Shown here: positions 3,238 through 45,830 of the stretch, in pieces | Layout of the letters: the number at the start of each line of letters is the position of its first letter | Position numbering within the stretch: the first letter of the stretch is position 1 | Assembly (NCBI GenBank): GCA_030432565.1 | Contig: JAUIGV010000010.1 | Span: forward strand, 62,001 to 126,000 | Source of the DNA: Verrucomicrobiia bacterium | Lineage (GTDB): Bacteria > Verrucomicrobiota > Verrucomicrobiia > Verrucomicrobiales > Akkermansiaceae | Direction of reading: 5' to 3' | DNA length: 64,000 nt | The notes under the pieces: generated by a model | Told to the model about the DNA's origin: nothing | The model's input: only the letters and a program-made list of their open reading frames with translations | Databases searched by the model: none | Translations under genes and position numbers: made by a program

Positions 3238-4131
3238 ATGAAATACGACTTTCTCGACACCGAAGTGCTCGCCCGACTCGGCGCGATTCCACTCGAGTCC
3301 CGCACTCCCATGATCGGGAACGTCGCCGGGCGGCACCGCTCACCCCACCGCGGTTCATCGGTGGAATTTGCGGAATACCGAAAATACGTGCCGGGCGATG
3401 ACACCCGTCGTCTTGACTGGAAGGCCTACGCGCGCTCGGACCGCTTCTACATTAAGGAATTCGAGGCTGACACCAACCTGCGAGCTTATTTCGTGGTCGA
3501 TTCATCAGGATCGATGAATTTCTCATCCGGCGACCACCCGACGAAGATCGACTTCGCCCGAAAGGTCGCAGCCACCCTCTCCTATCTCATCGTCAACCAA
3601 GGTGATTCAGCGGGATTGAGCTGCTGCAATGACAAGATCCACCTGGAAATTCCACCCAGCCGCCGGGCCGCGCAGCTTCAGGCAATTTTCGATTCCCTCC
3701 AAAACCTTGAGCCCACCGGTGATACCGGCCTCGTCGACGCTCTCCACCAAATTGCCGAGAAAATCCAGCAACGCGCTCTCGTCATTATCCTTTCGGACCT
3801 TTTTTGCGACACCGAGGAACTGGGCGACGCCCTTCAGCACCTCCGCTTCCGAAAGCACGACATCGCGGTTTTCCACCTCCTTGATCCCCAGGAGGTCGAA
3901 TTTCACTTCGAGCGCCCGCACCGTTTTGTCGACCTTGAGGATAGCACCACCGTGATCGCAGAACCGAATCTCATTGCTGACGAATATCACGCCGCCTTGC
4001 GCGAGTTTCTTGAGAAGGTCGAGGGCAAGTGTCACGACGTGCATGCCGATTACCATCTCTTTCAGACGAGTGCCAACTATGAGGAGATTGTTTCCAATTT
4101 CATCACCACTCGTCTTAATTCCAAACGCTAG
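3238..4131 (+). CDS. DUF58 family protein (VWA-like, Bat/MoxR cluster)
   Basis: A 297-residue soluble protein of the DUF58 family. The family signature is clear: VEFAEYRKYVPGDDTRRLDW with KAYARSDRFYIKEFE after it. A VWA-like fold follows, with metal-site motif DSSGSM (Asp88) and a later LSDLF strand. DUF58 proteins work with MoxR ATPases in Bat-type clusters linked to envelope stress or respiratory-complex maturation; the exact role is not known. It lies about 125 bases after the MoxR gene, separated by a long hairpin, and nine bases before the next gene. The ATG at 3238 fits the family start (KYDFLDTEVLARLGAIPL). Confidence 0.92.
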   Translation: MKYDFLDTEVLARLGAIPLESRTPMIGNVAGRHRSPHRGSSVEFAEYRKYVPGDDTRRLDWKAYARSDRFYIKEFEADTNLRAYFVVDSSGSMNFSSGDHPTKIDFARKVAATLSYLIVNQGDSAGLSCCNDKIHLEIPPSRRAAQLQAIFDSLQNLEPTGDTGLVDALHQIAEKIQQRALVIILSDLFCDTEELGDALQHLRFRKHDIAVFHLLDPQEVEFHFERPHRFVDLEDSTTVIAEPNLIADEYHAALREFLEKVEGKCHDVHADYHLFQTSANYEEIVSNFITTRLNSKR

Positions 4132-4140
4132 AATCACACC

Positions 4141-6144
4141 TTGAGTATTAGCTTTCTTTCACAAACGATTCTTTGGGGGCTGTTCGCGGCTTCCATCCCG
4201 GTGATCATCCACCTGCTAAATCGACGTCGCTTCCGCATCGTCGATTGGGCGGCCACAACTTTTTTGCTCAAGGCTTCCCGCGAGTCACGTGGTAAGAAAA
4301 AGCTCAAGCACATCCTCATCCTGATCTGCCGTACCCTGGCAATCGCCGCCCTTATTTTCGCGGTAGCCAGACCGCTTCTTGGTGGATTTCTCGGTTCAGG
4401 AAGCGGATCGGTTGGCACCGTGGTTCTTGTGCTCGATCGCTCTGCCAGCATGGAAACCAAACCTGAAAGCGGCGCTCCATCGTATCGTGAGGCTGTCATC
4501 TCCCAGGTGTGGGAAGCTGTCGAAAAAATGGGCTCACCCCGCTTGGTTCTCATCGATAGCGCCACCGGCGACATCCAGGAGGTTCCTTCACCCGATGCTC
4601 TGCCCGAACTCTCCACCACCTTTGCCACGGATACCCAGGCTGACATTCCGACCTTGCTGACCAAAGCCATCGATTACATCGACGAAACAAATCCCGGCCA
4701 GACTGAAATCTGGCTTGCCTCCGATATGCAGCGTGGGGATTGGCGACCCACTGATTCCCGATGGAATGCCGTTCGCGCCGGAATCGAAAGCCTTCCCACC
4801 AAAACCAAGCTAAGAGTTCTCTCTTCAGGCAGCGAACCCGTGGAAAACGTCGCCATTGAACTCATCGCTTCCCGCAGGGTTGAAGACAACCTGTTTCTGG
4901 ATCTCAGATTGACGCGAAGCAAGGGTGACGGCAACGCCACCGTCCCAATCACCTATTCCCTGCAGGGAGCACGCTCAGCCGAACGCGTGACCATGAACGG
5001 TCAGGAACTTCGCTTTCAAAAACGACTTCCGCTCAGCGCTGCCGACACCGAGGGCAGCGGTTGGGTCGGAATTCCCTCAGACAACAATCCCCGCGACAAC
5101 AGCGTCTTCTTCGCCTTCGGAGGCAAAGAGCCTGTCAGATCATGGATCGTTTCGGAGGACCCCTCGGGCAATACCGCAAACTACCTTCGCAAGGCCGCCG
5201 CACCCGATGGGTTCGACCGCTACAGTTCTGAAATCGTGGCTCCAACCCAGACTACCAAAATTGATTGGACCACAGCCTCACTCATCGTTTGGCAGGCTCC
5301 GATTCCAACCGGAGCGGTTGCTGCACAACTCAATGATTTCGCCGCATCCGGTGGTTCGATCCTTTTTTTCCCACCTGAAAAGCCATCCGAAAATGTCATC
5401 TTCGGAACTTCCTGGGGAGTCATTGAAGATGCTCCGGCAGACGAATATTTCATCAACGGTTCCTGGATCAAGGATGATGGACCCTGGCGGAACAGCATGA
5501 GCGACCAAAACATGCCGGTCGACCAGATCCGCGGAGTCAAGCGCTGCAGCATCCAGGGTGATGGTTCCTCACTCGCGGAATGGCGCGACGGTTCTCCTCT
5601 TCTTTACCGCCAACTGGAAGGTCTCGGCACCGCAATTTTCATTAACACCCTTCCTGACGACCGCTGGTCCAATCTGGAATTCGTGGCCCTTCACCTGGTG
5701 GCCATTCAACGCCTCCTGGAGAAAGGGACTGACCGCCTTCATGCCGGCTATCGCGCTATTGCAGGGGACGAGAAAGCCCGGCTTCGTGGCGACGAAGTAC
5801 GAGAGCGTCTGGATTCATTCGAGGACTACGAACCCGCTCTTGGGGCCTACCGCGCCGGAGTCTATCGTCTTGGCGAACGCGTCGTCGCGGTGAATCGACC
5901 TGCTGCCGAAAATTCGCCTCTCCGTCTTGATAATGAAGCTCTCGATACCCTTCTCGAGGGAACATCCTACTCACTCTTTGAAAGCACGAAAGATGATGAC
6001 AATCTTGTGTCCCCCGTCTGGTGGGCCTTCCTCATCGCCGTTCTCTTTTTCCTGCTTGCCGAGGCCATCCTCTGCCTGCAGCCCAAATTAACCGGACCGC
6101 CTGCCCTTAGCAAAGCATCCACAAAAACGTTCCCCGCCTCGTGA
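4141..6144 (+). CDS. BatA-domain membrane protein with VWA-like domain
   Basis: A 667-residue protein that starts with TTG at 4141, the only start fitting the family N-terminus SFLSQTILWGLFAASIPVIIH-type hydrophobic segment and LLNRRRFR basic motif typical of BatA N-terminal domains (PF07584). A second transmembrane segment lies at about residues 57-77, then a VWA-like domain with LVLDRSASMETK as metal-site strand. A large extracytoplasmic region follows, and a C-terminal transmembrane helix sits near residues 625-645. Similar long proteins accompany MoxR and DUF58 genes in planctomycetes and verrucomicrobia. The stop overlaps the next start (GTGA), so the two are probably translationally coupled. 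Confidence 0.85.
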   Translation: MSISFLSQTILWGLFAASIPVIIHLLNRRRFRIVDWAATTFLLKASRESRGKKKLKHILILICRTLAIAALIFAVARPLLGGFLGSGSGSVGTVVLVLDRSASMETKPESGAPSYREAVISQVWEAVEKMGSPRLVLIDSATGDIQEVPSPDALPELSTTFATDTQADIPTLLTKAIDYIDETNPGQTEIWLASDMQRGDWRPTDSRWNAVRAGIESLPTKTKLRVLSSGSEPVENVAIELIASRRVEDNLFLDLRLTRSKGDGNATVPITYSLQGARSAERVTMNGQELRFQKRLPLSAADTEGSGWVGIPSDNNPRDNSVFFAFGGKEPVRSWIVSEDPSGNTANYLRKAAAPDGFDRYSSEIVAPTQTTKIDWTTASLIVWQAPIPTGAVAAQLNDFAASGGSILFFPPEKPSENVIFGTSWGVIEDAPADEYFINGSWIKDDGPWRNSMSDQNMPVDQIRGVKRCSIQGDGSSLAEWRDGSPLLYRQLEGLGTAIFINTLPDDRWSNLEFVALHLVAIQRLLEKGTDRLHAGYRAIAGDEKARLRGDEVRERLDSFEDYEPALGAYRAGVYRLGERVVAVNRPAAENSPLRLDNEALDTLLEGTSYSLFESTKDDDNLVSPVWWAFLIAVLFFLLAEAILCLQPKLTGPPALSKASTKTFPAS

Positions 6145-8378
6145 ATCACTTCAATCTCGGCCCCCTCCACTTCCAGGCACAAACCTGGGTGATCGTCTTG
6201 GTGGTGATCGTCCTCATTGCGACGATTGCCCTGGGAATCATGGCAGTGCGACGCTCTGCCCGCCCCAAACGCACCGGCACCCTGGAAGGCCTCCGACTTC
6301 TCTGTGTGCTCTTTGTTTGTGCAATGTTGCTTGGGCCGGAATGGCGTACGGTGCAGCAATCAGACCTGCAGCCCGAAATCGCCATTATCTGGGATGAATC
6401 GATCTCCATGGACACCGAGGACGCCAAGCGCCCGGAATCGATGGCCGGGTCCGAAACCATTCTGACCCGCCGCGAGTTGGTCAAACGGATGGTCGATTCC
6501 AAATTCTGGGAGAGTTTTGAAGCAGACGGAAAAAACCGGGTCACGACCGACTCCTTCGGTGCGCCTTCACCCGATGCTGATCAGATCGAGCTCGCAATGA
6601 GCGGGACCGACATCAATGAGGCCCTTGCGAAAGCTCTGTCGAATGGACAGAATCTAAGAGCCGCTATTTTCGTGGGAGATGGCGATTGGAACGTTGGCAC
6701 ATCGCCTGTCAGTGCCTCCCAGCAATTCCGTCTCAAAGGTGTTCCAATTTACACCCTCGCAACGGGAAGTAAAAAGCGGGTTCCTGATCTGGAGCTCACC
6801 TCGGTCAATGCTCCGACCTATGGCATCATTGGTGAAAACGCCCAAATCCCCTTCACCATCGAGTCATCCCTCGCCCGTGACGTTCGCACCCAGGTCCGCA
6901 TCAAAAGCGACACCGGAGCAGAACGCTACAAGGACATCACCATTCGCGCCAACAGCACCCATTATGACTCCATTCTTTGGCGGGTCGAAAAAGAAGGGGC
7001 CTCAACTCTTTCAATCTCCCTTCCCGTCGCGAACGGGGAACTCATCGAGAACAACAATTCGCGCGATTTTGTCATCAGCGGAAAGCCGGAATCGATTCGG
7101 GTCCTCGTGATTGAGACCCTTCCACGTTGGGAGTATCGCTTCATCCGCAACGCGCTCTCGCGCGACCCAGGCGTCAAGGTTGATTGCCTCCTCCTTCATC
7201 CCGATTTAGGAATGGGTGATGGCCCCGATTACATTCAGGAATTCCCGGAAAAGCTCGAGGACCTGCAAAAGTATGACGTTGTTTTCATAGGCGATGTCGG
7301 CATTGGAGAAGGCCAACTTACCATCGAGCAAGCCAACCTGATCAATGGTCTCGTCAAGAGCCAGGCCAGCGGAGTCGTTTTCATCCCGGGAGCCAAGGGC
7401 AACCAATTCAGCCTCTCCAAGTCGGATCTTGGCGATCTCATTCCCGTCATGCTGGACGAGGATAAAAAAGAGGGCCTCTCCGAGTCCATCGAAACGACGA
7501 TGCGACTCACTCCCGAAGGCGAAGAATCCCTTCTCACCATGTTGGGAGACAGCGAAGCACAAAACGAAACGATCTGGAGAAACCTTCCAGGCTTTTACTG
7601 GCAGGCTCCCGTGATCCGGGCAAAGGCGGGCTCCACAATTCTTGCCGAAAACGAGGCTCGTCGAAACGCCTACGGACGCCTTCCCATCATTGTTACCTCA
7701 AGAGCCGGATCAGGAAAAGTCCTCTACATGGCGATCGATTCCGCGTGGCGATGGCGCCGCGGCGTTGAGGACCTCTACCACTACCGCTTTTGGGGACAAG
7801 TGGCACGCTGGATGTCGTACCAGCGAAACATGGCAGCGGGCGAACGAATCCGGCTTTTCTACACCCCGGAACGTCCGAAGCCCGGCGATTTCGTCTCTCT
7901 TTCCGCCAATGCTTTCGACGCAAATGGCGCTCCCCTCAGCGATGGAGTTCTTCAAATCGACCTGACCGCGCCGGACGGTCAGATCAAGCGAATCGAACTT
8001 GTGAAAGAAGAAGGCGCGTGGGGAAGCTTCTCGGGACGCTTCAAAATCTCCCAACCCGGTGAATGGAATCTGAACACCTTCATTCCCGAAGAACCTTCCG
8101 CCGCGGTCGAAGCGAAAATCATTTCTCAAACCGATGCCATCGAAAAGACCGGTCGCCCGGCTCGTTTTGAGGTTTTGCAGGAAATGTCCAAGGTTTCCCG
8201 TGGACGCATGGTCACTCCGGAGAAGCTCGACGAGTTGGTAAAGGAAATCAATGCCCTCCCGGAACCTCAGCCCTTGGTCGATTCGATTAAGCTATGGGCC
8301 CACTGGCTTGCTCCTGTGATACTCATCACACTCCTTTCTCTCTTCTGGATCGGTCGGAAGCTCAACGGCACCTTCTAA
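6141..8378 (+). CDS. Large membrane protein with VWA-like and glutamine-amidotransferase-like domains
   Basis: A 745-residue protein that begins at a GTG overlapping the previous stop. Two N-terminal transmembrane helices (about 15-37 and 52-68) are followed by a degenerate VWA strand (IIWDESISMDT) and a later FVGDGDWNVG motif. A middle region, starting near ESIRVLVIETLPRWEYRF, resembles the class-I GATase-like domain found in this family but lacks an obvious catalytic triad. A C-terminal helix (about 720-738) ends in a short basic tail. It closes the four-gene cluster, and a strong hairpin lies directly downstream. It is probably the membrane partner of the MoxR/DUF58 pair; the biochemical role is unknown. 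Confidence 0.82.
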   Translation: MNHFNLGPLHFQAQTWVIVLVVIVLIATIALGIMAVRRSARPKRTGTLEGLRLLCVLFVCAMLLGPEWRTVQQSDLQPEIAIIWDESISMDTEDAKRPESMAGSETILTRRELVKRMVDSKFWESFEADGKNRVTTDSFGAPSPDADQIELAMSGTDINEALAKALSNGQNLRAAIFVGDGDWNVGTSPVSASQQFRLKGVPIYTLATGSKKRVPDLELTSVNAPTYGIIGENAQIPFTIESSLARDVRTQVRIKSDTGAERYKDITIRANSTHYDSILWRVEKEGASTLSISLPVANGELIENNNSRDFVISGKPESIRVLVIETLPRWEYRFIRNALSRDPGVKVDCLLLHPDLGMGDGPDYIQEFPEKLEDLQKYDVVFIGDVGIGEGQLTIEQANLINGLVKSQASGVVFIPGAKGNQFSLSKSDLGDLIPVMLDEDKKEGLSESIETTMRLTPEGEESLLTMLGDSEAQNETIWRNLPGFYWQAPVIRAKAGSTILAENEARRNAYGRLPIIVTSRAGSGKVLYMAIDSAWRWRRGVEDLYHYRFWGQVARWMSYQRNMAAGERIRLFYTPERPKPGDFVSLSANAFDANGAPLSDGVLQIDLTAPDGQIKRIELVKEEGAWGSFSGRFKISQPGEWNLNTFIPEEPSAAVEAKIISQTDAIEKTGRPARFEVLQEMSKVSRGRMVTPEKLDELVKEINALPEPQPLVDSIKLWAHWLAPVILITLLSLFWIGRKLNGTF

Positions 8379-36034: not shown

Positions 36035-38719
36035 CTACGAGACCGGCATCCGGTAAATCAACCTCAATGAGTCCAGCCTGAGTCGGGCTCCCCCCAGCGC
36101 AGACTCCAATGCCGCGCGATGACTTTCGAGCTGCTTCAACTCCTCTTGACCGATCATGGGATTCACTTGTGCCAAGTCCACGAGACGGGCTTTCTCGTCA
36201 TCGAGCGCCTGCCTCATTGCCTTGAGAGAGGTGGCGACGACCTTTACCCGGCGTTGGCCGGCAAGGGCGTGCAAACTTTTCAACATCGCAGGAATCATTT
36301 CCCGGGTCACTTTGGGTTGTTCCAAAAGCTTGCGATGATTTCCCCTTCTAAGTACCGCTTTCATCAGAGCTGAATCAGCGGTGAGATTCCGCCCCTGGTG
36401 ATCGACCGCGACCCGAACCGGGACCGCCGGCAAGAAGTGGTCGGTTTGCAAAGACGCCGGCGCCACACATTCCACGAGGTAAAAGGCTTCCAAAATCACC
36501 GATTTCGGCCCCGGGGATTCCCAAACTCCGAAGGCACTATTCCCCGCCTCGCTGGAAAGCAGCAGATCGATGGCATTGCGCACCATGGGATGATCGGCAG
36601 ACATCAGCCCGATTTCTTCGCGGCCCAGAGCACGCTCCCGGTCAAAAGTCACCCCCACCCCGTCCTCCGGAACACTGGGAAAGGCATCGGTCACAACATG
36701 ACCTTGCTTGAGCAGATAACCACGTGAATCAAGCTCCTCCACGGCGAGACCAAAATGATCAAAGAGCCTCAAAGTCCAGTCTTCAAACTCACGATCACCA
36801 TCCCACGAATCGATCAGCTCCAGCGTCCCATCGATCTCTCCATCACCCTGCGATGAAAGCGCCAACAAACGATCCGGCCCCCGCTCCATCTGAATCTCCG
36901 TTTCAGCCCGAAGCTTCTTCGACTCGCTTATGAAATCAGTCAGAGTCTCCGCCTGAATTTGCTGCAGTCGCTTCACCAGGAGTTGCGCGCCTTGCAAATT
37001 TTTTTCAAAAGCATTCAAACCCTCGTGATACCAACGGGCATACCTCTCACCGGGGTCACCCTTCACAAAGGGAACATGAATATGGATCGTCCTTTTTTGA
37101 CCGATACGATCAAGCCGCCCTATCCTCTGCTCCAGGAGCTCGGGATTTTCAGGGAGATCAATCAGAACAAGATGACGGGCAAATTGGAAGTTGCGACCTT
37201 CACTCCCGATTTCGGAACAGATCAACAGGTCCGCACCATCTTCCTCCGAAAAGTAGGCCGCATTCCGGTCCCGCTGCAATAACGTCAACTCCTCGTGAAA
37301 CTGCGCAATCTTCATATTGACCCGCTCAAGCAACGCCTCGGTCAGATCTTCAACCAACTCGATCGTTTTCCCAATTAGGAGCACCTTTTGAGACGCGTGT
37401 TTCTTCAAGAAACCAACCAACCAATCCACCTTCACTACAAAAGCATCTTCCCCATCCAATTCAATGAGATGAGCCTTCCGCTCCGGGAAACCGGTCAATT
37501 GCTTCCGGGTATTTCGGAACATCACGCGACCGGTTCCAAATGAGTCCAGTAAATCGCGGATCACCCGGGAACGCGAACCCGGCTCATTTAGCCTTGTCAA
37601 CCCATCGGCAATGCGCGGCGAACGCCCCGCAAACAGCGAAGCGTCGGGCTGGCCACCGTTTTGGATCAAATCGATGGCATCAGCCACCTGTTCATAATAC
37701 CCGAACTCTTCCAAAAATGCCTCCAGATCACTGTAGCGATGTGGATCAAGAAGCTGGAGTCGGGCAAAGTGACCCTCCGCACCAAGCTGTTGGGGAGTCG
37801 CCGTGAGCAAGAGGACCGAAGGAGTTTCAGCAGCAAGCGCCTGCACCAGTTCATAGCCTTCACTGGACTCTTCAGGGCTCCACTCCAGGTGATGGGCCTC
37901 ATCCACAACCAGCAAATCCCAGCCAGCCTCGATCACTTGAGGAATGCGCTCGGGATGATCCAAAAGAAAATCCTGTGAACAGAGAATCAGTTGATTTTCT
38001 TCAAAAGGATTTCCTTCGGGAATGGAGCGACAACGATCCTCGTCAAAGATTGCAAACAAAAGATTAAATCGCCGAAGGAGTTCGACAAACCACTGGTGAA
38101 CCAATGGCTCAGGCAGAAGAATGAGCGCGCGATCAGCCCGACCTGTCAGATTGAGTCGATGCAGAATCAGACAAGCTTCGATGGTTTTACCCAGCCCAAC
38201 CTCGTCCGCAAGGAGCACGCGCGGGGACAGCCTAGAACATACCTCTTTCGCAATGGCAATTTGATGAGGGATGAGATCAATCCGCCCACCCAGAAAACCG
38301 CGAACCGGAGATTGACGAATTTTCGAGGATCGAAACAAGGATTCGATCCGCAGATTGAAAGTTCGCAGATCATCAACCTGCCCGCCGACGAGGCGGTCCT
38401 CAGGCTTGGAAAAACTGATCGAGTCATCCAACTCACCTTCTTGGAATGCCTGGTCGCCCTCATGATAAACCAAAAGCCCGCCTTCCTCCTCAACCCGATC
38501 AATCCGAATCATCTTTCCGGTGTGGATCAAAACCTCATCCCCCACTTTAAAGCGCACTCTCAGGATAGGAGCCGAATCGATTGCGAACGTTCTTTTCTCA
38601 TTCGCCACGGCAAACAAGATGGTCACCCTGTTTCCGCCCGACTCCAACAAAACACCAAGTCCGAGTTCCGGCTCACTGGTGCTGACCCATCGCTGTCCCG
38701 CTACAATATTTTCGCGCAT
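36035..38719 (-). CDS. rapA: RNA polymerase-associated SWI2/SNF2 ATPase RapA (HepA)
   Basis: An 894-residue Snf2-type ATPase. Its N-terminus (AGQRWVSTSEPELGLGVLLE) and following Tudor-like domains match E. coli RapA, which begins GQRWISDTESELGLG. The helicase core has LADEVGLGKT (Lys178), VVDEAHHLEW, LLTATPQQLG, then SEGRNFQFA and QRIGRLDRIGQ. The C-terminal RapA domain is present, so this is RapA proper and not a general Snf2 helicase. RapA binds RNA polymerase and helps recycle it after termination. It is divergent from the kinase-phosphatase gene across a region with direct repeats. Confidence 0.94.
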   Translation of the reverse strand: MRENIVAGQRWVSTSEPELGLGVLLESGGNRVTILFAVANEKRTFAIDSAPILRVRFKVGDEVLIHTGKMIRIDRVEEEGGLLVYHEGDQAFQEGELDDSISFSKPEDRLVGGQVDDLRTFNLRIESLFRSSKIRQSPVRGFLGGRIDLIPHQIAIAKEVCSRLSPRVLLADEVGLGKTIEACLILHRLNLTGRADRALILLPEPLVHQWFVELLRRFNLLFAIFDEDRCRSIPEGNPFEENQLILCSQDFLLDHPERIPQVIEAGWDLLVVDEAHHLEWSPEESSEGYELVQALAAETPSVLLLTATPQQLGAEGHFARLQLLDPHRYSDLEAFLEEFGYYEQVADAIDLIQNGGQPDASLFAGRSPRIADGLTRLNEPGSRSRVIRDLLDSFGTGRVMFRNTRKQLTGFPERKAHLIELDGEDAFVVKVDWLVGFLKKHASQKVLLIGKTIELVEDLTEALLERVNMKIAQFHEELTLLQRDRNAAYFSEEDGADLLICSEIGSEGRNFQFARHLVLIDLPENPELLEQRIGRLDRIGQKRTIHIHVPFVKGDPGERYARWYHEGLNAFEKNLQGAQLLVKRLQQIQAETLTDFISESKKLRAETEIQMERGPDRLLALSSQGDGEIDGTLELIDSWDGDREFEDWTLRLFDHFGLAVEELDSRGYLLKQGHVVTDAFPSVPEDGVGVTFDRERALGREEIGLMSADHPMVRNAIDLLLSSEAGNSAFGVWESPGPKSVILEAFYLVECVAPASLQTDHFLPAVPVRVAVDHQGRNLTADSALMKAVLRRGNHRKLLEQPKVTREMIPAMLKSLHALAGQRRVKVVATSLKAMRQALDDEKARLVDLAQVNPMIGQEELKQLESHRAALESALGGARLRLDSLRLIYRMPVS

Positions 38720-38833: not shown

Positions 38834-40042
38834 ATGAAGGAACTAAAAGACGGGCTCAGATCACTCGTTCGAATCGACTTCCAGGGACATGTTCACAAGC
38901 AATTCCGCGGGACAGATGCCGACAAACGATTCGAAAATGAAGTGGCTGTTTTGAAGGCACTTGAGGATCGGGGCGCCCCAAATGTGCCCCGTTTGGTTGG
39001 ACATGATCCTGAAACTCTCACTCTCATCACCACGAATTGCGGTTCCCCGGCCCCCCTCATCACGGAAGAAAAGGCGCGAGCACTTTTTCAGGAACTGGAA
39101 GAGAAATACGGGATCAAACATGATGACCCCGAACCTCGCAATGTCACCTACTCCCCCCATCTCGGTAAATTTTGCCTGATCGATTTTGAACTCTCCGAAA
39201 TTCTTCCAATGCCGTCGGACCTCGAAACCGGCAGGACCAACGTCCTCAGGGCCGGATGGGCCGCTTCCAGCATTAAGGGCCGAAAACACCTCGCAAACGA
39301 TGACGCGTTACTCGTCCTCACGGTCAACCCTCAATCGACCGACCCACTTCCCAACTCGGGTGAAATCCTCCTCGACCCCTCCCACCTCGTGCTCGCTGTT
39401 TCCGATGGCATGGGTGGACAGGACGCCGGAGAATTTGCATCCCGGCTTCTCATGTCCCGGATTCGCAAGGAAGCCGACGAACTCTACAACCATCTAGGGA
39501 CCGAAGATGATGCACAATCCGCCCTCGACGCCCTCCTCCGGCAATGCCACCACGACGTCACCGAACTCGCGGAGCAAAACGGAAACACCAAGGGCATGGG
39601 GGCCACCCTCACCATGGCCTGGATCAGCCATGAGCGTCTTTTCTGGGCGCACATCGGCGATTCCCGGCTCTACCTCATCAACGACGAAGGAGTCCAACAA
39701 CTCACCCAGGACGACTGCCGGGCATGGCACCAGTGGCAACGGGGCGAAATTACGGAGTATGCCTATCGAAACCACCCTCGAAAATCTGTCTTAAGCGACG
39801 TCCTCGGCGGCAGCCCCCACGAACCCTACCCAAAGACCGGCTCTCTGCCACTGAAAGACACACAGCGCCTCATGATTTGCTCGGACGGAATCATGGATGG
39901 TCTCTGGGAAAAAAGCATCCGCGAGATGCTCGCCGAGGATAAGCCAGTCTCCGAAATCATGCAAAATCTCTCCAGAAAAGCCATCGAGAACGACGATCGT
40001 GATGACACGACTCTGATCGTCGCGGAAATCTCCCATATTTAG
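38834..40042 (+). CDS. Fusion of kinase-like domain and PP2C protein phosphatase
   Basis: A 402-residue protein. The N-terminal part (about 1-130) is a compact kinase-like fold: Lys22 in HKQFRG, FENEVAVLKAL as helix C, catalytic-loop-like HDDPEPRN (His96, Asn103) and IDFELSE (Asp117) in place of DFG. The C-terminal part (about 150-402) is a complete PP2C: VSDGMGGQDAGEFA (Asp191), AHIGDSRLYL, ICSDGIMDGL and DDRDDTTLIV. A linked kinase and phosphatase suggests a self-contained phospho-switch. The N-lobe lacks a clear Gly-rich loop. The frame opens at a TTG (38795); the ATG at 38834 fits the first strand best. The GSII sigma-54 promoter begins three bases after its stop. Confidence 0.82.
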   Translation: MKELKDGLRSLVRIDFQGHVHKQFRGTDADKRFENEVAVLKALEDRGAPNVPRLVGHDPETLTLITTNCGSPAPLITEEKARALFQELEEKYGIKHDDPEPRNVTYSPHLGKFCLIDFELSEILPMPSDLETGRTNVLRAGWAASSIKGRKHLANDDALLVLTVNPQSTDPLPNSGEILLDPSHLVLAVSDGMGGQDAGEFASRLLMSRIRKEADELYNHLGTEDDAQSALDALLRQCHHDVTELAEQNGNTKGMGATLTMAWISHERLFWAHIGDSRLYLINDEGVQQLTQDDCRAWHQWQRGEITEYAYRNHPRKSVLSDVLGGSPHEPYPKTGSLPLKDTQRLMICSDGIMDGLWEKSIREMLAEDKPVSEIMQNLSRKAIENDDRDDTTLIVAEISHI

Positions 40043-40044
40043 AG

Positions 40045-40062
40045 TTGGCACACCAATTGCTT
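40045..40062 (+). promoter_or_regulatory. Sigma-54 (RpoN) promoter of glutamine synthetase
   Basis: TTGGCAC-N5-TTGCTT matches the RpoN consensus almost perfectly. The invariant GG (-24) is at 40047-40048 and GC (-12) at 40059-40060, with the required ten bases between. Transcription should start near 40072, about 85 bases before the gene's ATG. It implies an enhancer-binding activator (NtrC-like) acting from sites inside or upstream of the kinase-phosphatase gene. Confidence 0.85.
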
Positions 40063-40156: not shown

Positions 40157-41170
40157 ATGGCAAAATACCGACTCGATTACATCTGGCTGGACGGCTACAC
40201 GCCCGTTCCAAATCTTCGCACCAAGTGCTGCATCAAGGAATTTGATGAGTTTCCAACCCTCGAGCAGCTTCCTGAGTGGGGCTTCGACGGTTCCTCAACC
40301 CAACAGGCTGAAGGTGGTGACTCCGATTGTGTCCTGAAGCCCGTGGCAATCTACCCTGACGGAACCCGTGAAAATGGCGCTCTTGTCATGTGCGAAGTCA
40401 TGCTTCCAGACGGAAGTCCCCACCCATCGAACGCCCGCGCGACCATCCTCGACGACGAGAATGCATGGTTCGGCTTCGAACAGGAATACTTCTTCGAGAA
40501 GGACGGCAACATCCTTGGTTTCCCCAAAGGTGGTTATCCCGAGCCCCAAGGCGGATACTACTGTGGCGTTGGTTACAAGAATGTGGGTGACATCGGTCGC
40601 GCAATCGCAGACGAGCACCTCGACCTTTGTCTCTATGCAGGAATCAACCACGAGGGCATCAACGCCGAAGTGGCCATGGGCCAATGGGAGTTTCAGGTCT
40701 TCGGGAAAGGCTCGAAGCGCGCCGCCGACCAGATCTGGGTTGCCCGTTTCCTCCTCGAGCGCCTCGGCGAAGAGTATGGCGTCGACATCAACTACCACTG
40801 CAAGCCTCTCAAAGGCGACTGGAATGGCTCCGGAATGCACTGTAACTTCTCCACCAAGAAAATGCGTGAAGAAGGTGGCAAAGAATACTTTGACAAGCTT
40901 ATGGCCTCCTTCGAGAAGAACTGCATGGAGCACATCGCCGTCTACGGCCCGGACAATGATCAGCGCCTCACCGGCCTCCACGAGACCCAGTCGATCGACA
41001 AGTTCTCATGGGGAATCGCCGACCGCGGAGCTTCGATCCGGGTTCCGCACTCGTTCGCCAAGAACGACTGGAAAGGTTACCTCGAGGACCGTCGCCCGAA
41101 CTCACAGGGTGATCCTTACGCCATCGCCAGCCGCGTTCTGAAGACGATCGCCGAAGCTGACGAAGCTTAA
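40157..41170 (+). CDS. Glutamine synthetase type II (eukaryotic-like GSII)
   Basis: A 337-residue GSII, shorter than the bacterial GSI form (about 470). The beta-grasp start AKYRLDYIWLDGYTPVPNLR and WGFDGSSTQQAEG match the eukaryotic/rhizobial GlnII family. Catalytic regions GFEQEYFF, AGINHEGINAEVAMGQWEFQ, LKGDWNGSGMHCNFST and ASIRVPHS are intact. It converts glutamate and ammonia to glutamine with ATP. The Tyr adenylylation loop of GSI is absent, as expected, so control is by transcription, fitting the sigma-54 promoter. Upstream in-frame codons to 40061 lie around the predicted transcription start, so the ATG at 40157 is the start. Confidence 0.95.
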   Translation: MAKYRLDYIWLDGYTPVPNLRTKCCIKEFDEFPTLEQLPEWGFDGSSTQQAEGGDSDCVLKPVAIYPDGTRENGALVMCEVMLPDGSPHPSNARATILDDENAWFGFEQEYFFEKDGNILGFPKGGYPEPQGGYYCGVGYKNVGDIGRAIADEHLDLCLYAGINHEGINAEVAMGQWEFQVFGKGSKRAADQIWVARFLLERLGEEYGVDINYHCKPLKGDWNGSGMHCNFSTKKMREEGGKEYFDKLMASFEKNCMEHIAVYGPDNDQRLTGLHETQSIDKFSWGIADRGASIRVPHSFAKNDWKGYLEDRRPNSQGDPYAIASRVLKTIAEADEA

Positions 41171-41193: not shown

Positions 41194-41228
41194 ACGGCCA
41201 CCGGATTTTTCCGGGGGCCGTTTTTTTT
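41194..41228 (+). terminator. Rho-independent terminator of GSII
   Basis: ACGGCC-A-CCGGA pairs with TCCGG-G-GGCCGT around a short T-rich loop (41194-41221), followed by eight Ts. It separates GSII from the HMG-CoA reductase operon. Confidence 0.92.
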
Positions 41229-41301
41229 GCGGCCACACCCAATCAGAGAAAATTGGTTCCGTGCTCGCGTCGTTAGCACAGAAAGTGCAGATTTTCAGGC
41301 A

Positions 41302-42588
41302 ATGTCGGGAAAGCACGATCTCACCACCAGGCACATCAGGAATGTTCTTCGCGGGCGCAGCGTCAACGAGATCGTCGAACAAATGAAGCCCGACTTGAAT
41401 TCCCTGCCAACCAAAATTCCCGTCAGCGCCAAAACAACCTTGGAGCGGGTCGAAAAAACCTGGCAGCACATCCCAAATCCTACTCTCAAAGATATCCTGC
41501 TGAACCCGGATGACGTATCAGATTATCAGGGAAATATCGAGAATCTAATCGGCACTCTCAGAGTTCCCCTGGGCATCGCGGGACCACTCCGGGTCAACGG
41601 GATATTTGCCAAAGGCGACTACCTTGTCCCCATGGCAACAACCGAAGCCGCGCTCGTTGCCAGCTACCACCGGGGCTCCTCGCTCATTTCCGAAGCCGGG
41701 GGATGCACCTCCATGGTTCTTATTGAGTCCGTCAATCGCGCTCCCTCCTTTTGCTTCCCCGATATGGCTGCGGCCGGCCAGTTCGTGATGTGGGCCATCG
41801 CTGAAATGGAGGTGTTCCAAAAAGTAGCCGCCACCACCACCAGCCACGGACAATTGGTCGATATCGGAACGACCATTGAAGGAAACCACGTCTATCTGAA
41901 TTTCGATTTCCACACCGCCGATGCCTCCGGCCAAAACATGGTCACCATTGCCACCCAGGCCATCTGCGACCACATCCTAAAACACTCTCCGGTCAAGCCG
42001 TCCCAAGCCTATGTAGAGGCCAACCTTTCCGGCGATAAAAAGGCAAGCGCCCGCTCATTTACCACCGCTCGTGGCAAAAAGGTAACCGCCGAGGTTCACC
42101 TGGCCGCAGACCTTGTCAAAAAACGCCTTCACTGCACTGTTGATGAAATGTGTGATTACTGGCGAACTTCCGCCATAGGAGGGGTGCTCAGCGGAACGAT
42201 GGGCATTCAAGGTCACTTCGCCAATGGGCTCGCCGCTCTCTACCTTGCCACCGGCCAGGATGTCGCCTGCGTTGCCGAGTCGGCAGTCGGCGTGACCCGA
42301 TTCGAAAAGAGCGGTAATGGTGACCTTTACGCTGCCGTCACTCTTCCCGGAATCATGGTTGGTACGGTCGGCGGCGGAACCGGCCTTCCGACCCAAAATG
42401 CCTGCCTTCAAATTATGAATCTGGCCGGACCGGATAAATCCCGCGCCCTCGCCGAAGTGACGGCCGGATTGATCCTTGCAGGAGAGCTCTCGATCATTGG
42501 AGCTCTCGCTGCCGGACACTTCTCCCGAGCCCACCGGAACCTCGCTAGAGGCAAAAAACCAATCATCGACAAGAATGATGTTAGGTAA
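41302..42588 (+). CDS. Hydroxymethylglutaryl-CoA reductase
   Basis: A 428-residue HMG-CoA reductase, which makes mevalonate from HMG-CoA with NAD(P)H. Catalytic residues are intact: Glu80 in ENLIGTLRVPLGIAGPL, Lys246/247 in SGDKKAS, Asp320 in ATGQDVA, and His406/His411 in AGHFSRAHRN. MATTEAALVAS and GTVGGGTGLPTQ are also typical. The length and DKK motif resemble the catalytic domain of the eukaryotic/archaeal class more than the mvaA-type class II enzyme. The frame opens at a TTG (41227) in the preceding terminator; the ATG at 41302 follows an AGG. It leads a seven-gene cluster, 48 bases before the UbiA-family gene. No other mevalonate-pathway gene is in the window. Confidence 0.94.
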   Translation: MSGKHDLTTRHIRNVLRGRSVNEIVEQMKPDLNSLPTKIPVSAKTTLERVEKTWQHIPNPTLKDILLNPDDVSDYQGNIENLIGTLRVPLGIAGPLRVNGIFAKGDYLVPMATTEAALVASYHRGSSLISEAGGCTSMVLIESVNRAPSFCFPDMAAAGQFVMWAIAEMEVFQKVAATTTSHGQLVDIGTTIEGNHVYLNFDFHTADASGQNMVTIATQAICDHILKHSPVKPSQAYVEANLSGDKKASARSFTTARGKKVTAEVHLAADLVKKRLHCTVDEMCDYWRTSAIGGVLSGTMGIQGHFANGLAALYLATGQDVACVAESAVGVTRFEKSGNGDLYAAVTLPGIMVGTVGGGTGLPTQNACLQIMNLAGPDKSRALAEVTAGLILAGELSIIGALAAGHFSRAHRNLARGKKPIIDKNDVR

Positions 42589-42636
42589 TCTTTATTCGAT
42601 TTCCTCAATTTCGGAACCTGCTCTTTATTGATCCCC

Positions 42637-43503
42637 ATGCGCTGGTGGACCTACCAAAAAGAACGATTTCCGATTTTCGCCAATGGGCTTTTGATTGCGG
42701 CATTTAGTTCCTGCGCCGTCTTTTACTCATCATTTCTCTCCGGGGGAAGCCCCCCCAACATTGGCATGTTCGCAGTCGCGTTTGTCACCTGCTTCATCTT
42801 TTTTCTGCAACTTCGGATTGCCGATGAATTTAAAGATGCCGGGGAAGACGCGCAATTTCGACCCTACCGCCCCGTTCCACGTGGCCTCATTAAACTGCGT
42901 GAACTTGGAATCATTTTTGTCGTCGGATCCCTGATTCAACTCGCTCTGGCATTATGGTTTTCACCCAAACTTCTCTGGATCCTACTTTTCGGATGGATCT
43001 ATCTCTCCCTGATGAGCGCCGAGTTTTTTTGCCGGGATTGGCTCAAGGCGCGCCCCATCACCTACCTTTGGACCCACATGTTGATCATGCCTATCGTCGA
43101 TCTTTACGCGACAGCATGTTATTGGTTCCCCGATCTCGACGCCCCGCCGCAAGGACTCATTTGGTTTCTTGCAGCAAGCTTCACCAACGGTCTCGTCATC
43201 GAGCTCGGTCGCAAGATCCGCTTTCCTGACGAGGAAGAAGAAGGTGTCCCCACTTACAGCAAACTCTGGGGAACACATCGAGCCGCCTGGATTTGGGTGG
43301 GATGCCTCGCGACGACTTTTCTCTTTGCCTTCATCGCCTCCTGCCAAATAGGAACACACTTCGAAACCACCCTTGTTCTTGGGGCGGCATTCGGACTCTC
43401 CGCCTTACTCTGGCAACCCGGAAAGCGAATCGAACTGCTCTCCGCCCTCTGGACGCTCACCCTCTACCTTAGCCTCGGAATTCTTCCCCTTTTCTTATCA
43501 TGA
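42637..43503 (+). CDS. UbiA-family membrane prenyltransferase
   Basis: A 288-residue protein with about eight transmembrane helices. Two acidic motifs mark the UbiA family: RIADEFKDAGED with RPYRPVPRGLI after it (first Asp-rich loop), and ELGRKIRFPDEEEEG with VPTYSKLWG (second loop). They bind Mg2+ and the prenyl diphosphate. UbiA enzymes attach isoprenoid chains to aromatic or glycerol-phosphate acceptors, or in some members act on chlorophyll or heme. The acceptor here is unknown. The ATG at 42637 is chosen over an earlier TTG. Its stop overlaps the dikinase start (ATGA). Confidence 0.88.
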   Translation: MRWWTYQKERFPIFANGLLIAAFSSCAVFYSSFLSGGSPPNIGMFAVAFVTCFIFFLQLRIADEFKDAGEDAQFRPYRPVPRGLIKLRELGIIFVVGSLIQLALALWFSPKLLWILLFGWIYLSLMSAEFFCRDWLKARPITYLWTHMLIMPIVDLYATACYWFPDLDAPPQGLIWFLAASFTNGLVIELGRKIRFPDEEEEGVPTYSKLWGTHRAAWIWVGCLATTFLFAFIASCQIGTHFETTLVLGAAFGLSALLWQPGKRIELLSALWTLTLYLSLGILPLFLS

Positions 43504-45830
43504 TCATTGAACCACTTGATTGCAGAACCGAAGATCCCGTTGGTGGAAAGGCCCGCTCATTGGCTTCCCTCACCCAGGCTGGTTTCGAAATACCGGACTG
43601 GTTTATCGTCACTCCGGATGACTATCAACTTCCACCACTCAACGGACTCCATGCCGTCCGCTCTTCCGCCATGAGCGAAGACGGTTCGGAGAATTCCTTT
43701 GCCGGACAGTTCGACAGCTTCCTTAATATCTCTCCGGACGATGTGGAAGTTCATATCGAAAAAGTCCGCCAATCCGGAACATCGTCACATCTCGAAACCT
43801 ACGCCAGGACCCGCGAGGTTGAGATGAAAGGTCGGGTCTCGGTGATCGTTCAAAAAATGGTCGACGCAAAATTTGCGGGGGTGGCTTTCGGTGCAGATCC
43901 TATCACCGGCGAGCGAGCGATCACCATCGTCTCTGCAATCGAAGGTCTTGGCGAAGCACTCGTGTCCGGTGAAATCGACTCTGAAAACTGGCGGATATCC
44001 CCCACTGGAGAAATTGAGGGTGCAAGCAAACTTCTAACAAAAGAGCAAATCGTCGAAGTCAGTCATCTTTGCCGCCGCTGCAACGCTCACTTTGGATGCC
44101 CGCAAGACATCGAATGGGCCATCGATCAGAAGGGTCGGCTTTGGCTACTCCAAAGTCGCCCCATCACGACACTCGCAAAGCTCCCCGACCCTTCCGATGC
44201 ACTCACAGTCTGGGATAACAGCAATATCGCGGAATCCTACGGCGGCGTGACAAGCCCGCTCACCTTTTCATTTGCCTCCCGTATCTACGAACACGTCTAT
44301 CGCGAATTTTGCAAACTCCTAAAGGTTCCCAGGTGGAAGATTGAAGGACACAATCAAGTTTTCCCCCAAATGCTCGGACATATCAATGGGCGGGTTTACT
44401 ATAATCTTGTCAGTTGGTATCAAGTCCTCGCGCTATTGCCCGGCTTCACGATAAACCGGACTTTTATGGAGAAGATGATGGGAGTGAAACAGCCTCTCCC
44501 CGATGAAATCATCGACCAAATCATCGCTAACAACTCAACATCCAGATGGCGGGATGGAATTGCCCTGTTCAAAACAACCCTGGGGCTTGTTTACAGTTAT
44601 TTCAAACTCCCCCGACAAATCAAGGGATTTCAGCACCGTCTCAATGATGCTCTGCGAGTCAAAGTGCCACTTTCTAGATTCAGCCGGAGCGAGCTGATCT
44701 CGCACTACCGCGAACTCGAAGACAAATTACTTCATCGCTGGGATGCGCCCCTCGTCAATGACTTCTTCGCCATGATTTTCTACGGCCTGTTGGCAAAGAA
44801 TACCGATGACCCCAATGCATTTTTGCGCGACACCGGTGACATCATCTCGGCCCGCCCTCCACGACTCATCAAGGAAATGGCCGCCCTCGTCCGCCCGCAC
44901 CCTCAACTCACCCAAACCCTCCTGTCTGACACTCCGGTCGCAAGAAAACTCTCGGAAGTACGAGAGCACCCCGAGTTAAACAAAAAACTACAATCCTACC
45001 TTGAGGAATTCGGGGATCGTTGCCTCGAGGAGCTCAAACTGGAAAGTCCCACCGTACTGGATGACCCCGGATCGCTTCTCCAATCGATTGGAACTTTTGC
45101 GGCTCACCCGCCAAAGGAAACGGTCAAGGAGCCTTCTCCAAAGCCCAGGGGTTTTTCACAAAGATTCCTCGCTTCCAAAGCCCGCCTTCTCATCAGAAAT
45201 CGCGAAAACCTTCGCTTCGAGCGAACCCGGGTTTTCGGACGTGTCCGCAATATCGTCCGTGAACTTGGCAATCGCCTCGTTGCCGACCGACAACTGGAAT
45301 CGTCCGATGATGTCTTTTATCTCACTCTCGATGAGATACTCGATAGCGGAGTTACACGAGACCTCACATCACTGGCCTCACTGCGCAAAAAGGAATTTTA
45401 CAACCACCATCAATCCTCCTCTCCACCCGATCGGTTCAATACACGAGGCCCCCTTTATCGACATCGGGAATTTCTTCCCGAAGAATCCCACGAAGATACG
45501 AAAGGAGACCTAAAGGGAATTGGAGCCTGTGCCGGAATTGTCCGTGGCCCTGTCAGAGTAGTGACCAACCCCAGGGAGGCCACCCTGCAGCCCGGGGAAA
45601 TTCTTGTCGCAACCCAAACCGATCCAGGTTGGGTCGTCCTCTTTCCCGCCGCAGCCGGACTGCTGGTTGAACGCGGAAGCCTCCTCTCCCACTCCGCGAT
45701 TGTTGCCAGGGAACTAGACCTTCCCTGTGTCGTCTCCCTCACCAACATTACCACCACGCTCAAAACCGGAGACCTCGTTGAAATGAATGGTAAAACAGGT
45801 GAGGTCACCCTCCTTAACGATGAAAACTGA
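43500..45830 (+). CDS. Rifampicin-phosphotransferase/PEP-synthase-like dikinase
   Basis: A 776-residue protein. The N-terminal ATP-grasp region (about 1-240) contains GGKARSLASLTQAGFEIPDWF, AVRSSAMSEDG and SRPITTLAKLPDP, all typical of PEP synthase and Rph. The middle (about 240-640) begins SYGGVTSPLTFSFA, as in Rph-type enzymes, and serves as acceptor-binding part. The C-terminal swivelling domain has LLSHSAIVARELDLPCV with the phospho-His at 731. Members transfer phosphate from ATP through this His to a hydroxyl group. Rph inactivates rifampicin, but the operon context suggests a biosynthetic alcohol substrate. The start overlaps the UbiA stop; the 3' end overlaps the next gene by 11 bases. 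Confidence 0.88.
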   Translation: MIIEPLDCRTEDPVGGKARSLASLTQAGFEIPDWFIVTPDDYQLPPLNGLHAVRSSAMSEDGSENSFAGQFDSFLNISPDDVEVHIEKVRQSGTSSHLETYARTREVEMKGRVSVIVQKMVDAKFAGVAFGADPITGERAITIVSAIEGLGEALVSGEIDSENWRISPTGEIEGASKLLTKEQIVEVSHLCRRCNAHFGCPQDIEWAIDQKGRLWLLQSRPITTLAKLPDPSDALTVWDNSNIAESYGGVTSPLTFSFASRIYEHVYREFCKLLKVPRWKIEGHNQVFPQMLGHINGRVYYNLVSWYQVLALLPGFTINRTFMEKMMGVKQPLPDEIIDQIIANNSTSRWRDGIALFKTTLGLVYSYFKLPRQIKGFQHRLNDALRVKVPLSRFSRSELISHYRELEDKLLHRWDAPLVNDFFAMIFYGLLAKNTDDPNAFLRDTGDIISARPPRLIKEMAALVRPHPQLTQTLLSDTPVARKLSEVREHPELNKKLQSYLEEFGDRCLEELKLESPTVLDDPGSLLQSIGTFAAHPPKETVKEPSPKPRGFSQRFLASKARLLIRNRENLRFERTRVFGRVRNIVRELGNRLVADRQLESSDDVFYLTLDEILDSGVTRDLTSLASLRKKEFYNHHQSSSPPDRFNTRGPLYRHREFLPEESHEDTKGDLKGIGACAGIVRGPVRVVTNPREATLQPGEILVATQTDPGWVVLFPAAAGLLVERGSLLSHSAIVARELDLPCVVSLTNITTTLKTGDLVEMNGKTGEVTLLNDEN

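Follow-up and report, generated by a model that had tools for sequence, protein, structure and literature searches.

The gene directly ahead of glnII in this Verrucomicrobiia genome raises the question of why a kinase-like domain and a phosphatase should be encoded in one chain at that position, and on what they would act. In the window (the whole stretch of 64,000 nucleotides that was analysed), the gene is an uninterrupted open frame of 402 codons, ATG to stop, at 38834-40042 on the forward strand, and ATG 38834 corresponds to the conserved start, M1 being nearly invariant in an alignment of 49 relatives. A sequence-only reading of this DNA had proposed a compact kinase-like domain joined to an intact PP2C, considered such a combination rare in bacteria, and asked whether the protein senses nitrogen or polymerase state. 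The two-domain architecture was borne out by the single frame, the invariant catalytic residues and the Pfam cut-offs passed, while rarity of the fusion was not the key point, since the same family also has the two domains as separate neighbouring genes. The two domains probably form a couple dedicated to switching nitrogen assimilation by phosphorylation.

A minimal kinase-like domain and its PP2C partner

The mini-kinase domain (KIN, about 129 aa) spans 38834-39220 (+) and was identified from invariant residues, an AlphaFold2 model, fold matches and weak profile matches. The residues quoted in the sequence-only reading (K22, HDDPEPRN and IDFE) were all present, together with the alpha-C Glu36, and the catalytic ones were invariant across the family. 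The corresponding codons on the forward strand lie at 38897-38899 (K22), 38939-38941 (E36), 39125-39127 (D98, of HDD), 39140-39142 (N103) and 39182-39184 (D117, of IDFE). Among the 49 relatives, most of them 43-66% identical, K22, R32, E36, H96, D98, R102, N103, T105, Y106, I116, D117, F118 and E119 were invariant, and the residue set of the protein-kinase-like (PKL) superfamily was complete (beta3 Lys, alphaC Glu, HxD Asp, Asn and DFx Asp).

Structure prediction, the check suggested for the N-terminal domain, supported a kinase-like fold. The AlphaFold2 model, built with 14 sequences (pLDDT 90.3, pTM 0.83), displayed the order beta1-beta2-beta3(K22)-alphaC(E36)-beta4-beta5-alphaE-catalytic loop-DFE, and obtained 415 PDB matches at E<=0.001, with hundreds of kinase chains. 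Foldseek placed ArkI, an archaeal RNA kinase, first (8yv4/8yv5, E 7e-7, 26-27% identity) and CK2 next, and VIA-align matched RIO2, PRPK/Bud32, CDKL1 and DAPK (Z about 12-13). Profile matches were weak and mostly near or below their cut-offs (APH, Kdo, choline kinase, ABC1, Pkinase), the NCBIfam Bud32 profile TIGR03724 scoring far below its own, so that KIN stands as an orphan within the kinase superfamily and, from residues and model, appears to be a previously unclassified kinase family inside the protein-kinase-like superfamily. The domain terminates just after DFE and a short segment, without the peptide-binding C-lobe of ordinary protein kinases, and is therefore very short; standalone copies commonly form open frames of 137-150 aa (about 140 aa). 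ATP binding is putative, as judged from residues and fold, and KIN would presumably have ATP-dependent kinase activity. KIN may thus count among the smallest kinase domains in nature and define a new family.

The top Foldseek match points to a different substrate class, in which KIN would modify RNA (tRNA or the glnII transcript) as ArkI does, and PP2C would be a separate protein phosphatase regulating the kinase or the type II glutamine synthetase (GSII). ArkI (AQ578 family) displays DFE in place of DFG, an HGQ catalytic loop and an alpha7/YKR helix (PMC9095486). The small kinase-like fold, the DFE motif, invariant in KIN as IDFE, and the missing peptide-binding subdomain VIII are common to both. 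However, KIN keeps an invariant HxD where ArkI has HGQ, lacks the C-terminal RNA-binding alpha7/YKR helix, and is linked to PP2C and glnII, while the eraser of ArkI is KptA and not a PP2C; fusion to a protein phosphatase suits a phosphoprotein better, and RIO2 and PRPK/Bud32 score equally by VIA-align. Modification of RNA was consequently considered improbable, at about one chance in ten.

The PP2C Ser/Thr phosphatase domain (39233-40042, +), joined in frame to KIN by a short linker, was assigned from Pfam, PDB matches and motif conservation. The metal-ligand motifs SDGMGG, GDSR, SDG and DDTT were intact in the window protein, and N..D, SDGMGG, GATL, GDSR, SDG and D(D/N).T were invariant in the family. 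Pfam PP2C_2 matched with E 2.3e-15 (57.1 bits, cut-off 24), and the nearest solved structures by sequence were PstP-type bacterial phosphatases (PDB, E about 1e-25). The score against the Stp1/IreP equivalog NF033484 was below cut-off (159.7 versus 230 bits), which places the domain, by sequence, in the same superfamily and outside that equivalog. Both parts were under purifying selection, with dN/dS of 0.02-0.04 for the kinase part (where computable) and 0.06-0.09 for PP2C.

Association of the couple with GlnII

The glnII gene, encoding GSII, lies at 40157-41170 (+) and was recognized by the Pfam Gln-synt N and C domains and by its identity to rhizobial GSII (72-79% over the full length); its score against the NCBIfam GlnII equivalog (377.8) was below the cut-off of 500. 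Occurrence of the mini-kinase was associated with GlnII far beyond chance. Within 288 genomes of the phylum, KIN was found in 52 and GlnII in 58, comprising all 52 of these and six more from another class, in which GlnII was divergent (only 58-62% identical); Fisher's test gave p 6e-51, a statistic that ignores kinship. Among 384 class members with a completeness of 90% or more, 218 matched the kinase profile and 224 had GlnII; both were present in 215 and neither in 157, and 12 were discordant, the two lists being compared by eye. Discordant genomes had KIN only in three cases (one doubtful, 3e-4) and GlnII only in nine, in seven of which GlnII was divergent, partial or low-scoring, so that KIN accompanied a full orthologous GlnII in 215 of 217 genomes. 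Holders of the kinase were spread over many families, and the co-occurrence held even when KIN was located elsewhere in the genome. In genus g3, from the window's own family, kinase and GlnII were absent in all members seen, and PII was likewise absent in the three tested. A second, divergent GlnII type (57-62% identical) without mini-kinase was found in another class (loci L149, L150 and L151, from G071, G240 and G115).

Gene order displayed the same association in several forms. In most genomes glnII adjoins the kinase, in one of three arrangements: it diverges from the kinase gene, follows the phosphatase gene or precedes the kinase gene. Of 52 genomes that carry both, taken as a fixed sample, 43 had the pair within 5 kb (37 divergent and 6 tandem), and in the remaining nine the kinase was apart from glnII. 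No other conserved neighbour was found across about 70 loci: the next commonest family was present at 8 of them, rapA at 7, and neighbour cluster c2 consisted of antisense shadow frames. Where the kinase lay away from glnII, its neighbours had no common theme. The neighbourhood check thus confirmed that the position ahead of the GSII promoter is meaningful, as the linkage to glnII is conserved across the class. That this linkage is inherited gene order devoid of functional meaning would be in line with all members belonging to one class, in which related genomes share synteny. The order nevertheless differs between genomes (divergent, tandem upstream and tandem downstream), the other neighbours all change, and the co-occurrence persists when the genes are far apart, which leaves mere inheritance a very slim chance. 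A functional link of the kinase/PP2C couple to GSII is accordingly held with high confidence.

The full rapA gene (36035-38719, -; NCBIfam PRK04914, 966 bits), encoding the RNA polymerase recycling helicase, is divergent from the kinase gene, as the sequence-only reading had stated. All seven rapA-bearing loci belonged to the window's own genus, so the idea of a response to polymerase state was unsupported, and a link to RapA was rejected. Downstream of glnII, at 41227-45830, the window encodes an HMG-CoA reductase, then a UbiA-like integral membrane protein and a PEP-synthase-like protein, the latter two named by eye only; this gene set was not retained in close relatives (e.g., L062-L071). 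PADLOC gave no match to a defence system, and Rfam gave only sub-threshold matches to RNA elements near glnII.

The kinase is fused to PP2C in the window's genus, while in many other genera a separate kinase gene is followed by a separate PP2C gene, sometimes overlapping. On a quick tree, supported branches carried three or more changes between the fused and the split state, and by these sequences fusion or fission of KIN and PP2C appears to have happened at least three times; the family thereby displays a kinase and its opposing phosphatase shifting between separate genes and one chain. In three of the nine genomes with kinase and glnII apart (G035, G032 and G325), the kinase was relocated while PP2C had kept its divergent place, 224-259 bp from glnII. 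Fusion in several lineages, and the persistence of PP2C rather than KIN beside glnII in these three genomes, could indicate that KIN serves chiefly as an ATP sensor or a regulatory domain: it would phosphorylate itself and its state would switch PP2C, within the chain or at the operon level, and PP2C would deliver the output, on GSII or on other proteins. Such a role fits poorly with the invariance of every catalytic residue of KIN and with its co-occurrence with GlnII even from a distant genome position; it was judged unlikely, at roughly one chance in eight.

Some loci departed from the common layout. An NtrC-type sigma-54 response regulator lay near the kinase in L085, and in L079 and L084 the kinase had no PP2C neighbour and followed a same-strand gene, by eye an MgtE-type magnesium transporter. 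In L159 (IMGVR_UViG_3300017658_000249, 3383-6257), which is listed among viral contigs and is probably bacterial or the flank of a prophage, glnII, mini-kinase and PP2C stood in a row on the same strand. Plasmid and phage collections gave no kinase match by tblastn. A scan of 84,980 species with six peptide patterns, all taken from the window's own sequence such that distant relatives could escape, returned matches in Verrucomicrobiota only, and the kinase family has so far been seen only in this phylum.

Promoters and the nitrogen-control setting

The sigma-54 (-24/-12) promoter site of glnII, TTGGCACACCAATTGCT at 40045-40061 (+), begins 3 bases past the PP2C stop and conforms to the pattern TGGCAY-N6-TGCT. 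Of 59 glnII loci, 49 had the pattern 75-130 bp ahead of the gene, where shuffled sequences would give 0.06; it was kept in two of the three divergent-GlnII loci that were read. The same scan found no site upstream of KIN (0 of 63 loci) or of PP2C (0 of 64), and sigma-54 control of the kinase gene was rejected. With a site ahead of glnII and none found ahead of the couple, it appears that nitrogen control can induce glnII and that the kinase/PP2C couple is expressed from another promoter.

The genome encodes RpoN, a GlnD of 902 aa (one PF08335 domain, and ACT domains) and a PII whose T-loop has Ser49 and Tyr51. GSII was the sole glutamine synthetase detected (a single PF00120 match), and no GlnE was found in the genome, nor any GlnE adenylyltransferase domain in the kinase-PP2C protein; the classical control of the type I enzyme (GSI) by adenylylation is thus missing.

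This setting offers other substrates. The couple could have its target elsewhere in nitrogen control, in PII, an NtrC-type regulator or a partner of GSII, and affect GSII only indirectly, for instance through phosphorylation of PII at Ser49 as in cyanobacteria. In its favour, the PII of this genome has both T-loop residues, and PphA, a PP2C, dephosphorylates the cyanobacterial PII, for which the kinase is unidentified (PMC4285133). However, many genomes of the class without KIN, often with several PII genes, had a T-loop identical to that of carriers; the occurrence of the kinase is thus tied to GlnII and not to PII. GlnD, moreover, is present for uridylylation, and KIN has no other conserved neighbour family. 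PII Ser49 was not favoured as the reason for the couple, and an indirect action of this kind was given about one chance in five.

A candidate switch for GSII and its relation to known systems

The reading that the couple is a dedicated kinase/phosphatase for type II glutamine synthetase, reversibly phosphorylating GSII or a protein that functions alongside it, was moderately favoured, at slightly better than even odds. It best explains the intact and conserved domains, the kinase fold, the near-obligate co-occurrence with GSII, the clustering with glnII in several orders, the repeated fusion and fission, the sigma-54 site ahead of glnII and not of the couple, and the absence of GlnE and of a second synthetase. 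In the proposed sequence of events, glnII would first be switched on through sigma-54, the mini-kinase would add phosphate to a Ser or Thr of GSII or of a direct partner protein, and PP2C would take it off again, so that GSII activity would be set after induction. GSII itself was given an even chance of being the substrate. Sensing of nitrogen by the couple, as the sequence-only reading had asked, is plausible; the signal (glutamine, 2-oxoglutarate or energy state) and the direction of the effect on GSII are at this stage conjectural.

Several points were counted against this explanation: the lack of a peptide-binding C-lobe, ArkI as top Foldseek match, the non-independence of genomes as data points, the kinase standing away from glnII in nine of the 52 pairs, and the failure to find a target in GlnII. 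Regarding the latter, no convincing lineage-specific Ser/Thr was found among the sequences of the class as a phosphorylation target: the only differences from the divergent GlnII of Verrucomicrobiota were T233 and S186, and S279 was distinct in the comparison with Rhizobium alone. No kinase/PP2C system or dedicated modifying enzyme for bacterial GSII was found in the open-access literature searched, many subscription papers lying outside this scope. The couple is a direct, testable candidate for modification of GSII and, if it does modify the enzyme, would exert a control of a kind not known for bacterial GSII.

Among known systems, AceK, the isocitrate dehydrogenase kinase/phosphatase, likewise combines kinase and phosphatase activities on one metabolic enzyme in one chain. 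AceK differs in having a single active site for both activities, whereas the present protein has two separate domains, one of them a PP2C, and the AceK profile gave no match to the window protein at E<=1 (Pfam). RIO and Bud32/PRPK kinases share the minimal kinase core (VIA-align Z about 11-12) but are only 14-22% identical, and KIN appears to lack the remaining C-lobe helices and has neither a KEOPS nor a ribosome context. Hanks-type kinase/PP2C pairs such as PrkC/PrpC resemble the couple as a kinase and PP2C gene pair; their kinases are large ePKs of broad specificity, and to our knowledge none has a dedicated link to GSII. GlnA is listed among the substrates of Hanks kinases in a review (PMC6213207). 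PphA is also a PP2C in nitrogen control but acts on PII. The parallel in proposed function is GlnE, the textbook case, for GSI, of reversible covalent control of glutamine synthetase, in which one protein with two opposing activities sets the enzyme as is proposed here. GlnE adenylylates GSI and differs in chemistry, fold and enzyme type, while here a kinase and a PP2C stand beside GSII. It is possible, with a probability slightly short of even, that the couple is the phosphorylation counterpart of GlnE: a dedicated GSII kinase/phosphatase built on a new, minimal family of kinases (about 130 residues) and present across the GSII-bearing lineages of a single Verrucomicrobiota class.
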